The notes under the pieces: model-generated | What the model was told of the DNA's origin: nothing | Database searches by the model: none | Seen by the model: only the letters and a program-made list of their open reading frames with translations | Assembly (NCBI RefSeq): GCF_900215575.1 | Contig: NZ_OBEJ01000002.1 | Location: 496,001-560,000, forward strand | Direction: 5' to 3' | Source of the DNA: Natronoarchaeum philippinense | Lineage (GTDB): Archaea > Halobacteriota > Halobacteria > Halobacteriales > Natronoarchaeaceae | DNA: 64,000 nucleotides | Made by a program: the position numbers and the translations under genes | In this document: in pieces, positions 9,007 through 39,500 of the stretch | Layout of the letters: each line of letters begins with the position of its first letter | How positions within the stretch are numbered: position 1 is the first letter of the stretch

Positions 9007-10917
9007 ATGGCCAGTAACAAGATTCTCGGTATCGACCTCGGTACCACGAACAGCGCGTTCGCCGTAATGGAAGGCGGTGACCCGGAGATCATCGTCAACA
9101 GCGAGGGCGAGCGGACGACACCCTCGATCGTCTCCTTTACCGACGAGGGCGAGCGACTGGTCGGGAAGCCGGCGAAGAATCAGGCAGTCCAGAACCCCGA
9201 GCGCACGATCCAGTCGATCAAGCGCCACATGGGCGACGAGGACTACACCGTCGAGATCGACGGCGAGGAGTACACGCCCGAGCAGATCTCGGCGATGACG
9301 CTCCAGAAGATCAAGCACGACGCCGAGGAGTATCTCGGCGACGAAGTCGAGAAAGCCGTCATCACGGTCCCCGCGTACTTCTCGGACCGACAGCGACAGG
9401 CCACGAAGAACGCCGGCGAGATCGCCGGCTTCGAGGTCGAGCGCATCGTCAACGAGCCGACCGCGGCGTCGATGGCCTACGGGCTCGAAGACGACCAAGA
9501 CCAGACCGTCCTCGTGTACGACCTCGGCGGGGGGACGTTCGACGTTTCGATTCTCGACCTCGGCGGCGGCGTCTACGAGGTCGTCGCAACGAACGGCGAC
9601 AACGATCTGGGCGGCGACGACTGGGACGAAGCCATCATCGACTGGCTCGCCGAGGAGTTCGAGAACGAGCACGGCATCGACCTCCGCGAGGACCGGCAGG
9701 CGCTCCAGCGACTCAAGGACGCCGCCGAGGAAGCCAAGATCGAGCTCTCCTCGCGCAAGGAGACCGAGATCAACCTCCCGTTCATCACGGCGACCGACGA
9801 CGGCCCGATCCACCTCGAAGAGAGTCTCACACGCGCGAAGTTCGAGTCGCTCACCAGCGATCTGATCGAGCGCACCGTCGAGCCGACCGAGCAGGCACTC
9901 GAAGACGCCGGCTACTCCAAGGACGACCTCGACGAGGTGCTGATGGTCGGCGGCTCGACGCGGATGCCCCAGGTCCAAGAGCAGGTCGAGGAGATGACGG
10001 GCAAAGAGCCCAAGAAGAACGTCAACCCCGACGAGGCCGTCGCGCTGGGCGCGGCGATTCAGGGCGGCGTGCTCGGCGGCGAGGTCGACGACCTCGTGCT
10101 GCTCGACGTGACGCCGCTTTCGCTCGGTATCGAGGTCAAGGGTGGCATCTTCGAGCGCCTCATCGAGAAGAACACGACGATCCCGACCGAGGAGTCGAAG
10201 ATCTTCACCACCGCCGCGGACAACCAGACATCGGTGCAGGTGCGCGTGTTCCAAGGCGAGCGCGAGATCGCCCAAGAGAACGAGATGCTCGGCGAGTTCC
10301 ACCTGACGGGCATCCCGCCAGCCCCCGCCGGAACGCCCCAGATCGAGGTGTCCTTCAGCATCGACGAGAACGGCATCGTCAACGTGCAGGCGGAGGACAA
10401 GGGCTCGGGCAACGCCGAGGAGATCACCATCGAGGGCGGCGCCGGCCTCTCCGACGAGGAGATCGAGCAGATGCAGCAGGAAGCCGCGGAACACGCCGAA
10501 GAGGACCAGCAGCGCCGCGAGCGCATCGAGGCTCGCAACGCCGCGGAAGAAGCGATCCAGCGCGCTAACACGCTGCTCGAGGAGAACGAGGAAGCCGTCG
10601 ACGACGCGCTCCGAGAGGATATCGAGGCCGAGATCGACAACGTCGAGGCCGTCCTCGACGACGACGACGCGACCAAGGAAGACTACGAAGAGGCCACCGA
10701 AGGACTCACCGAGGCGCTCCAAGAGATCGGCAAGCAGATGTACGATCAGCAGGGCGCACAGGCCGGCGCCGCGGGCGGTGCGGGCGGCATGGGCGGCGCC
10801 GCCGGTCCGGGCGGCCCGGACCCGACGACGGGCACCGACGGCGGCCCTGAGGCCGGCGACGGCGACGAGTTCGTCGACGCCGACTTCGAGGACGTCGACG
10901 AGAGCGACGAGGAGTAA
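9007..10917 (+). CDS. dnaK: Molecular chaperone DnaK (Hsp70)
   Basis: 636 aa; ATG 9007 precedes [20 protein letters not shown], the phosphate-1 motif. Further ATPase-domain signatures are [12 protein letters not shown] (phosphate 2) and [12 protein letters not shown]. The substrate-binding domain begins at about residue 365 ([16 protein letters not shown]), and a helical lid follows with a Gly/Ala-rich then acidic tail ending in the DVDESDEE type. It is a complete bacterial-type Hsp70, as found in haloarchaea. grpE is upstream; a free-standing dnaJ is not in the window, but a J-domain-ferredoxin fusion is at 5384-6037. Confidence 0.97.
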
Positions 10918-10941
10918 CGCGACGAGTCGCTCTCGTCGGCT

Positions 10942-11003
10942 CGATAGACGAGCGGAGCGAGTCTATCGGTGTCTGAAAAAGCGAGCGGAGCGAGCTTTTT
11001 CAG
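10942..11003 (+). repeat. Two adjacent hairpins with the identical 11-nt loop GAGCGGAGCGA
   Basis: Hairpin A has arms CGATAGAC (10942-10949) and GTCTATCG (10961-10968). Hairpin B has arms CTGAAAAAGC (10973-10982) and GCTTTTTCAG (10994-11003). Both loops are exactly GAGCGGAGCGA. B ends in a T-run and lies 56 nt after dnaK, so it can serve as the dnaK terminator. Stems differ completely while loops are identical. Related units occur at 39244-39343 and a degenerate one around 20108. Confidence 0.75.
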
Positions 11004-11146
11004 TTGGACGACGAGGAGGAGAACTGAAGGGACGAGGACTGACACAGCGGCTACGAACGAAGCGCATTTTTCAGTGAGGCCACGGCGGCGTCGGACTGCC
11101 CGGCACAGACAGCACAGTTACGTAGCTGCCGATTCAGGAGACAGTC

Positions 11147-20097: not shown

Positions 20098-20126
20098 CGA
20101 TTCCAGCGAGCGAAGCGATCGGGTAA
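20098..20126. repeat. Degenerate copy of the 11-nt-loop hairpin family
   Basis: GAGCGAAGCGA (20108-20118) differs by one base from the GAGCGGAGCGA loops after dnaK. The flanks retain only partial pairing (ATT/AAT and CC/GG). It lies between the 186-aa hypothetical gene and the tfs stop codon. I read it as a decayed member of the family at 10942 and 39244. Confidence 0.45.
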
Positions 20127-37576: not shown

Positions 37577-39226
37577 ATGACACGGATCGCTGGCCTGGCG
37601 AGTAATCGCGGACGAAACCTGCTGCACATCGACGATCTCGCGCCCGGCGGGGCCGAGCTCGCGGTCGTGCTGACCAACGACGCCGACGCGCCGGTCCTCG
37701 ACGCGGCCGCCGAGCGCGGGATTCCCACCGAAGTCGTCGAGCGCGACGACGGCGAGTCCCGGCAGGCCCACGAGGAGCGCATCAACGAGGCGCTGGCCGA
37801 GCACGATTTCGATCTGGTCTGTCTCGACGGGTACATGCGCATCCTCACGGACACGTTCCTCGACGCCCAGCCCGAGACGCTGAACGTCCACCCCTCCTTG
37901 CTGCCCTCGTTCCCCGGCATGGACGCGTGGGGCGACGCGATAGAGGCCGGCGTCGACGTGACCGGCTGTACCGTCCACGTCGTCACGGACGCCACCGACG
38001 AGGATGGCGAGGTCGTCGAATCGGAGGTCGACGGCGGCCCGATCGTCACCCAAGAGCCGATCCCGATCTACGAGGGCGACGACGCCGACGGGCTGGCCGA
38101 CCGGGTGCTCTACGAGGGCGAGTTCAAGGCCTACCCCCGCGCAGTGCAGTGGTTCGCGGAAGACCGCGTCGAGGTCGACTACGAGAACGGCGTCGTCCAC
38201 ACGCCCGAAGACGACGAGGACCTCCCGGCGCGCTTTCTCGCCACCGGCGATCAGGTCGCCGATCTCCGGTACGGCGAGAACCCCCATCAGGACGCCGCGG
38301 CGTACGCCGACTACTCCTGCGAGGAGGCCTCGGTCCTGAACGCGGACCAGCTCAACGAGGGCGCCAAGAGCCTCTCCTATAACAACTACAACGACGCCGA
38401 CGCCGCGCTGAACCTCGTCAAGGAGTACGACGACCCCGCCGCCGCGGTGATCAAACACACCAACCCCGCCGGCGCTGCGGTCGCCGACACGCTTGCCGAC
38501 GCCTACCGCGACGCGCTCTCGACCGACGCCAAGAGCGCCTTCGGCGGCATCGTCGCGCTGAACCGCGAGTGCGACGCCGAAACCGCCGCGGAGATCACCG
38601 ACTCGTTCAAGGAGGTCGTCGTCGCGCCGGGCTACACCGACGACGCCCTCGACGAACTGTTCGAGAAGGACAACCTGCGCGTGCTCGATGTGGGGCACGG
38701 GGACGGTCGGACGGGCGAGTCCGACCGGTCCGCTCTCGACACGCCCGTCGAGCACCACACCGAAAAGCGCCTCGCCGGCGGCCGCCTCGTGCAAGAGCGC
38801 GACCGCCAGTCGCTCTCGCGCGAGGACCTCGAAGTCGTCACCGAGCGCGAGCCGACCGACGAGCAGTTCGAGTCGCTGCTCTTCGCGTGGCAGACGATCA
38901 AGCACGTCAAGTCCAACGCGATTCTCTTTGCCGACGGCACCGAGACGGTCGGCGTCGGCGCCGGGCAGGTCTCCCGCGTCGACGCGGTCGAAATCGCCAA
39001 GATGAAAGCCGACTCGGACGCCGAAGGTAAGGACGCCGACGGCGCCGTGATGGCATCGGACGCCTTCTTCCCGTTCCCGGACGCCCTCGAACTCGCCGCC
39101 GAGGCCGGTATCGAGGCCGTCATCCAGCCCGGCGGCTCCGTGAACGACGAGGACGTGATCGAGGCCGCCGACGAGCACGACGTTGCGATGGTCATGACCG
39201 GTCAGCGGTGCTTCCGGCACGACTAA
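37577..39226 (+). CDS. PurN-AICAR transformylase fusion (PurH without cyclohydrolase)
   Basis: 549 aa from ATG 37577; the upstream open frame is unrelated. Residues 1-200 are a GAR transformylase (RIAGLASNRGRN, NVHPSLLPSFPGMDAW with the catalytic His and Asp region). Residues 225-549 are the AICAR transformylase part of PurH (RYGENPHQDAAAY, KSLSYNNYNDADAAL, AVIKHTNPAGAA, HVKSNAILFADG, VIQPGGSVND). The N-terminal IMP cyclohydrolase domain of bacterial PurH is absent and replaced by PurN, so IMP closure needs another enzyme. Two hairpins (38705-38752) lie inside the gene. Confidence 0.92.
   Translation: MTRIAGLASNRGRNLLHIDDLAPGGAELAVVLTNDADAPVLDAAAERGIPTEVVERDDGESRQAHEERINEALAEHDFDLVCLDGYMRILTDTFLDAQPETLNVHPSLLPSFPGMDAWGDAIEAGVDVTGCTVHVVTDATDEDGEVVESEVDGGPIVTQEPIPIYEGDDADGLADRVLYEGEFKAYPRAVQWFAEDRVEVDYENGVVHTPEDDEDLPARFLATGDQVADLRYGENPHQDAAAYADYSCEEASVLNADQLNEGAKSLSYNNYNDADAALNLVKEYDDPAAAVIKHTNPAGAAVADTLADAYRDALSTDAKSAFGGIVALNRECDAETAAEITDSFKEVVVAPGYTDDALDELFEKDNLRVLDVGHGDGRTGESDRSALDTPVEHHTEKRLAGGRLVQERDRQSLSREDLEVVTEREPTDEQFESLLFAWQTIKHVKSNAILFADGTETVGVGAGQVSRVDAVEIAKMKADSDAEGKDADGAVMASDAFFPFPDALELAAEAGIEAVIQPGGSVNDEDVIEAADEHDVAMVMTGQRCFRHD
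38705..38752. repeat. Two hexaloop palindromes inside the purN/AICAR-transformylase gene
   Basis: GGTCGGAC (38705-38712) and GTCCGACC (38719-38726) form an 8-bp stem with loop GGGCGA; CTCGAC (38735-38740) and GTCGAG (38747-38752) form a 6-bp stem with loop ACGCCC. They encode a Gly/Asp/Ser-rich segment (GHGDGRTGESDRSALD) of the transformylase domain. Confidence 0.55.
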
Positions 39227-39500
39227 CAGGAGTGTCTGAAATTCGCAGGGCGAGCGTAGCGAGTCCTGCGGCGTTTCAGGCATAACTGAGCGATAAGCGA
39301 AGGAATGCCGGAAGCTCGAAAGACGACCGAAGGGAGTCTTTCGGTGTTTCCGGCACGACTAACGGGAGTGGCGGAAGCCCGTCAGAGCAAGCTCTGACGG
39401 TGCTTTAGACACGATTGAGCGCTAGCGATTGAGTGTCTAAAGTTCGCTGGGCGAACGCTGTGAGCTAGCAGTATTTTAGATACGATTGAGTGTCCGAAGC
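39212..39500. repeat. Array of nested palindromes after the purN/AICAR-transformylase gene
   Basis: Five hairpin units follow the stop codon. Unit 1: outer arms CTGAAA/TTTCAG around CGCAGGGC/GTCCTGCG (39236-39279). Unit 2: GCCGGAA/TTCCGGC around CGAAAGAC/GTCTTTCG (39307-39354). Unit 3: CCGTCAGAGC/GCTCTGACGG (39379-39400). Unit 4: CTTTAGACA/TGTCTAAAG (39403-39442). Unit 5: TCTAAA/TTTAGA around a degenerate stem (39436-39480). Inner loops of units 1, 2 and 5 are 11 nt (GAGCGTAGCGA, GACCGAAGGGA, GAACGCTGTGA). Between units a motif like CACGAYTRA recurs. The gene end itself is duplicated at 39350. Confidence 0.8.

Follow-up and report, generated by a model that had tools for sequence, protein, structure and literature searches.

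Hairpin modules with tandem-GA/GNA tips, wrapped in copies of the host gene 3′ end, in haloarchaeal genomes

We focus here on a group of intergenic hairpins in a 64,000-nucleotide stretch of the Natronoarchaeum philippinense genome, referred to as the window, and on the gene-end structures of which they are part (Table 1). Directly 3′ of dnaK, the last codons of the gene pair with an inverted copy of themselves, which is followed by two hairpins and then by a second, degenerate version of the tail. As the original prediction had it, the two hairpins have unrelated stems and hold GAGCGGAGCGA in common. The downstream tail copy is weak by itself (13/16) and becomes clear only against the orthologs. 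A scan for bacterial-type terminators and promoters 3′ of dnaK found none, and no Rfam family matched the window at gathering score. A second array lies behind a gene that we take, from its protein, to be a purN-purH-like fusion. Both of the hairpins proposed there are real, and the 8-bp stem ascribed to each applies to that at 39317–39343, whereas the one at 39245–39269 (GAGCGTAGCGA) has 7 pairs, one of which is G-T. The isolated match at 20108–20118, on the other hand, had been taken for a copy with a decayed stem; its 11-mer is present, its stem is absent and 188 of 200 shuffles fold better than it does (z +1.28). It is thus counted as a chance match, so that the "at least five copies" claimed for the 64 kb come down to four hairpins.

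Table 1. Gene-end units and related features in the window.
Feature	Position	Strand	Remarks
dnaK CDS, gene whose 3′ end is copied	9007–10917	+	codon-usage gene caller
Tail a, last dnaK codons	10896–10908	+	5′ arm of 13-bp stem spanning the stop codon
a′, inverted copy of dnaK tail	10926–10938	+	3′ arm; stop codon TAA (10915–10917) in loop
Hairpin 1	10942–10968	+	CGATAGAC – tip GA-GC-GGA-GC-GA (10950–10960) – GTCTATCG; 8-bp stem
Hairpin 2	10973–11003	+	CTGAAAAAGC – tip GA-GC-GGA-GC-GA (10983–10993) – GCTTTTTCAG; 10-bp stem
a′′, degenerate downstream copy of dnaK acidic tail and stop	11004–11027	+	reads DDEEEN plus stop
Bare GAGCGAAGCGA	20108–20118	+	no stem; judged a non-member
purN-purH-like fusion gene (presumed name), 3′ end copied	37577–39226	+	
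Outer stem CTGAAA/TTTCAG	39232–39279	+	encloses hairpin with tip GAGCGTAGCGA (39252–39262)
a′, inverted copy of purNH-like gene end	39307–39315	+	GCCGGAAGC
Hairpin with tip GACCGAAGGGA (39325–39335)	39317–39343	+	inner pair changed to C-G; 8 pairs
a′′, purNH-like gene 3′ end with stop codon	39343–39362	+	19/20 identical to 39207–39226
Third array hairpin, CGTCAGAG/CTCTGACG	39380–39399	+	different tip

What had been described as a conserved 11-nt loop is in fact a structured tip, misread as single-stranded. It parses as GA-(2 bp)-GNA-(2 bp)-GA, that is, a tandem G·A/A·G mismatch, two covarying base pairs and a GNA triloop, with an inner pair that varies between G-C, C-G and A-T; the GA mismatches are presumably of the sheared geometry. 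This reading follows from an open scan for hairpins around dnaK at 80 haloarchaeal loci (1.06 Mb), in which GA/GA followed by 2 bp and a triloop is the commonest class of hairpins with 2x2 mismatches (15 of 984 on both strands, against 9 for the next unrelated class), 13 of these 15 carrying a GNA triloop on inner pairs GC, CC or AC. When dnaK tips were gathered without requiring complementarity, 22 of 31 matches nevertheless paired at 6 or more of the 8 flank positions, with G-T counted as a pair. The tip sequence also fits the definition of a GNA mini-hairpin, a GNA loop on at least two G-C pairs, as given in the accessible part of PMC4686876, where d(GCGNAGC) DNA mini-hairpins are described as extraordinarily heat- and nuclease-stable, with a melting temperature of 78 C. 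The core GC-GNA-GC is identical in sequence; that of the source, as far as its accessible part goes, is a synthetic DNA oligonucleotide, whereas here it is a genomic motif framed by tandem GA.

In the 3.16-Mb source genome, the exact loop occurs 83 times against 41 for a reversed-pattern control, and with one mismatch allowed there are 34 matches in the window compared with 22.5 ± 5.1 in shuffles; bare loop counts of this kind are weak evidence, too weak to decide. Loop and stem pairing taken together, on the other hand, are decisive for the hairpins being real. The genome-wide search for the loop with complementary flanks, which had been proposed as a check, finds stems far above chance: at least 5 Watson-Crick pairs are formed by the flanks of 17 of 79 exact-loop sites, while random re-pairing of the same flanks gave a mean of 0.48 and a maximum of 4 in 1000 rounds. 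The proposals of a genome-wide element at gene ends and of a location between genes also stand, in that all 40 tips whose flanks form 5 or more pairs are intergenic as called with our own simple codon-usage gene caller and ARAGORN; about 88% of the window is coding. These well-stemmed tips are sense to the upstream gene in 33 cases and antisense in 7, and a perfect 16-nt direct repeat flanks 16 of the 40, compared with 3 of 150 random positions.

The tip is part of a larger haloarchaeal unit consisting of a, a hairpin or short loop, a′, a GA/GNA hairpin and a′′, where a is the gene 3′ end, a′ its inverted and a′′ its direct copy; a′ is absent from some copies. In dnaK orthologs the end of the coding sequence pairs with its own inverted copy immediately past the stop, placing the stop codon in a hairpin loop, and this stop stem is followed by hairpins (with a GNA tip in several species) and then by a second copy of the acidic tail with a stop of its own. 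Stop-spanning Watson-Crick stems of at least 9 bp are present at 13 of 80 dnaK genes versus 5 of 807 other genes. The 13-bp stop-codon hairpin of the window (10896–10938) is shared by several genera, and changes at silent sites of the gene are mirrored by changes in the 3′ UTR. General tail copying at protein genes was considered and rejected: downstream tail copies of at least 17/20 were found for 5 of 787 predicted genes versus 2 and 3 in two controls, which is not convincingly above those controls, and units at protein genes are therefore rare, with dnaK a special case.

tRNA genes are the main habitat of the units. In the source genome, 21 of 45 tRNA genes have a copy of their own 3′ end (at least 18/22) within 600 nt downstream and none of the 45 has one within 600 nt upstream, while inverted copies of at least 15/22 lie downstream of 14 and upstream of 1; in the congener G050, the direct copy is found downstream of 20 of 43 tRNA genes and upstream of none. 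Behind the tRNA end, hairpin H1 comes first, then the inverted T-arm, H2 and the direct copy; the inserts measure 65–285 nt in the cases listed, mostly 100–200, and are built of hairpins. The copy spans the T-loop to the discriminator base: of 88 tRNA genes examined in the two genomes, 37 have copies of at least 19/22, and in these the left extension is 0–2 nt in 36 and the right extension 0–3 nt in 32. At L187, L025, L026 and L011, extra small hairpin insertions sit within the copied tRNA end, between its T-arm and acceptor parts.

The unit is restricted to one order. Of 49 named haloarchaeal genomes, 39 contain the tRNA pattern GATTTGAA-N20-50-TTCAAATC and none contains its reversed control; a stricter version is present in 42 of 53 genomes of the source order and in 0 of 241 others in the phylum (control 0); since the pattern fits only T-loops of one sequence, both fractions are minima. 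Viral contigs were set aside as a source of evidence: at least 120 stretches match the tRNA-arm pattern, but in 2.9 million contigs an AT-rich 16-base palindrome will find matches by chance. A BLAST search of plasmids and phages with one unit returned short chance matches only.

Among 67 tRNA-linked units, the GA-rich strand is the tRNA (sense) strand in 59 and the antisense strand in 2, with 6 ties, a count that is not built into the search since the regular expression is its own reverse complement. Two inverted modules (L140 and L365) and the antisense tips mentioned above nevertheless mean that the sense orientation is not obligatory, and the folding energies of the two strands barely differ (−12.7 kcal/mol sense versus −11.6 antisense). 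In a set of 20 units, hand-chosen for one type and length, there are 22 double-changed cells compared with 6.3 after shuffling and 0–2 after sliding, and 95.9% of cells pair. T-runs adjoin many units. The sense bias and the covariation favour an RNA role, for which a terminator or an RNA-protein site, both raised originally, would remain candidates. They would also be accounted for, together with the excess of dnaK stop-codon stems, tandem arrays such as L187 and the adjoining T-runs, if the units were purely RNA features, i.e. resident 3′-trailer or 3′-UTR structures that arose by tandem gene-end duplication and evolved in place, with a role as a terminator, as a block to exonucleases or as a switch that alternates a:a′ and a′:a′′ pairing. 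The accessible part of a study of Haloferax volcanii (PMC7237163) lends this some weight, with hairpins upstream of 503 termination sites, one of which gave 59% termination when tested. We consider such a purely RNA origin rather unlikely, in view of the differences between congeners.

Orthologous tRNAs of two congeners often differ in the presence of a unit or in the module carried. At one tRNA (L169/L382) the site is filled in G000 and empty in G050, and what follows the copy in one resembles what follows the tRNA in the other, which points to insertion of new sequence. Moreover, for 12 of 17 modules the nearest counterpart sits at a different tRNA of the same genome rather than at the orthologous one, a comparison that pits the best of many loci against a single ortholog and so favours the other locus. 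Both observations speak against structures evolving in place, as does the failure to call a bacterial-type terminator 3′ of dnaK. The original suggestion of a small mobile palindrome is upheld in part, by the filled and empty sites and by near-identical modules at different genes; the stems, on the other hand, do not reproduce any single repeat, and the arms duplicate the 3′ end of the host gene, a feature absent from that suggestion. At L365 (tRNA-Ile, G050) and at L140 (after dnaK), the module lies in the opposite orientation between its arms, a state that recombination of the inverted arms could produce.

A related element of CTTTTT type consists of CTTTTTNGCCNANNTTTTT, a hairpin and AAAAAGG (CTTTTTNGCCNANNTTTTT...AAAAAGGTGG); of 9 haloarchaeal genomes, 6 contain it, with 24 copies in all, and the reversed control gave 0 (loci L408–L431, e.g. 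L426, L427 and L430). An exact repeat of at least 25 nt links the upstream sequence, mostly a visible gene end, to a downstream copy at 11 of the 24 loci, a number in which two arrays are counted twice, and the other 13 have none that long; no inverted copy of the gene end was seen there. The host genes include what we take, from their proteins, to be ileS-like and nuoI-like genes. At L418/L421 and L411/L416 there are near-identical tandem arrays of the unit with the gene tail, suggesting recent amplification.

We infer, with about even confidence, that these are small haloarchaeal modules, folded as RNA or as ssDNA, which move from one gene 3′ end to the next by making copies of the target end and which probably act as 3′-trailer or terminator structures. 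A module would pass to a new gene end when a short stretch of homology there primes copy-back synthesis or gene conversion; between tRNA genes, this stretch would be the T-loop, which is largely common to tRNAs and would let modules pass from one to another. After transfer, the arms would become copies of the new host gene's end, and two template switches, with the hairpins as turning points, could write a-H1-a′-H2-a′′. The sense orientation would then be kept through the very stable folding of the transcript or of a displaced single strand, sealing or terminating the 3′ trailer. Much of this anatomy is also what a neutral by-product of replication would leave behind, if stable GNA mini-hairpins fold the nascent strand back to copy itself, yielding a functionless a-H1-a′-H2-a′′ and repairing stems toward perfect complementarity. 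The zigzag of a, a′ and a′′ is the expected product of two template switches, the stems are arbitrary, modules are inverted at L140 and L365, and GNA/GC mini-hairpins are exceptionally stable, as reported in the accessible part of PMC4686876. We nonetheless think such an origin improbable: fold-back copying would replace the GA/GA mismatches with Watson-Crick pairs, yet they are conserved, and both the 59:2 sense bias and the confinement to one order are at odds with it. Simple self-priming fold-back was set aside as the sole cause because the mismatches persist and, since it also leaves the strand bias unexplained, selection on the folded sense strand was added to the proposed copying between gene ends. 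Seen from the side of mobility, the modules may, though we put this somewhat below an even chance, represent a new mobile or semi-mobile class that, on insertion, turns its arms into copies, one inverted and one direct, of the host 3′ end while the host end always stays intact. The same tentative reading describes a target-copying "gene-end cap" with tandem-GA/GNA tips, confined to haloarchaea and, in the two genomes whose tRNA genes were gone through individually, present at roughly half of these genes.

If true, an undescribed structured module that duplicates the end of its own host gene lies next to roughly half the tRNA genes of two haloarchaeal genomes and next to dnaK of several genera, and most other genomes of the source order contain some units. 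This would bear on the termination or trimming of archaeal tRNA and mRNA 3′ ends, as well as on the reshaping of genomes by short homology and hairpins, and for annotation it means that gene finders can be misled by tRNA half-copies. Haloferax and Haloarcula genetics make the module amenable to test.

Tyrosine integrases that act at tRNA genes duplicate the tRNA 3′ end from the T-loop, and a tRNA 3′-end duplication with a fixed crossover is found here too, the left edge lying at the T-loop in 36 of 37. The units might be footprints of integrative elements, the ends left after deletion of what an integrase had inserted, and the copy from T-loop to discriminator as well as the filled and empty sites would agree with this. 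It is, however, very unlikely, as the same architecture stands behind dnaK, the purNH-like gene and other protein genes with unrelated ends, an inverted copy a′ lies inside and modules are exchanged between loci; between the repeats, the inserts listed (about 65–285 nt) consist of hairpins rather than an integrase or element body. MITEs carry fixed terminal inverted repeats shared with a transposon, whereas the inverted arms here follow the host gene and not the element. REP sequences, in the accessible part of PMC3733652 on GTAG and CGTC repeats, are likewise short, intergenic, clustered hairpins with variant stems and a possible RNA role; those described there are bacterial, with a conserved stem-loop and a GTAG/CGTC tag, whereas here the stems vary, the tip is conserved, no constant tag is seen (tags being judged by eye) and the arms copy the host gene end. 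The PATEs and SMRs of Haloquadratum, as described in the accessible part of PMC3119063, resemble the units in being haloarchaeal, small, palindromic and non-coding; neither PATEs nor SMRs duplicate their target, which for SMRs is another mobile element, while the units are found at the 3′ ends of genes, of which between 20 nt and about 200 nt is duplicated. That the units are REP- or PATE-like palindromes mobilised by IS200/IS605 Y1 transposases, which their clustered intergenic hairpins and the existence of haloarchaeal PATEs might suggest, is highly improbable, given these long duplications and the lack of a conserved stem, and Y1 transposases are not likely to be the driver: a Y1_Tnp search found a single match in the source genome, with an internal TGA, and there is one in G050. 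Haloarchaeal transcription terminators, finally, share the position 3′ of genes, the T-runs and the hairpins; the accessible part of the H. volcanii 3′-end study (PMC7237163) reports T-stretches and hairpins and mentions neither gene-end copies nor the GA/GNA tip, the string GAGCG being absent from it. The H. volcanii genome paper has no match for "tRNA gene" or "inverted repeat", and in the openly licensed PMC literature, judged mostly on titles and abstract starts, we recognised no description of a gene-end-copying module. Wrapping in inverted and direct copies of the host gene end is absent from the mobile-repeat families compared; we count the module among the small palindromes, with a fair chance that it forms a class of its own.
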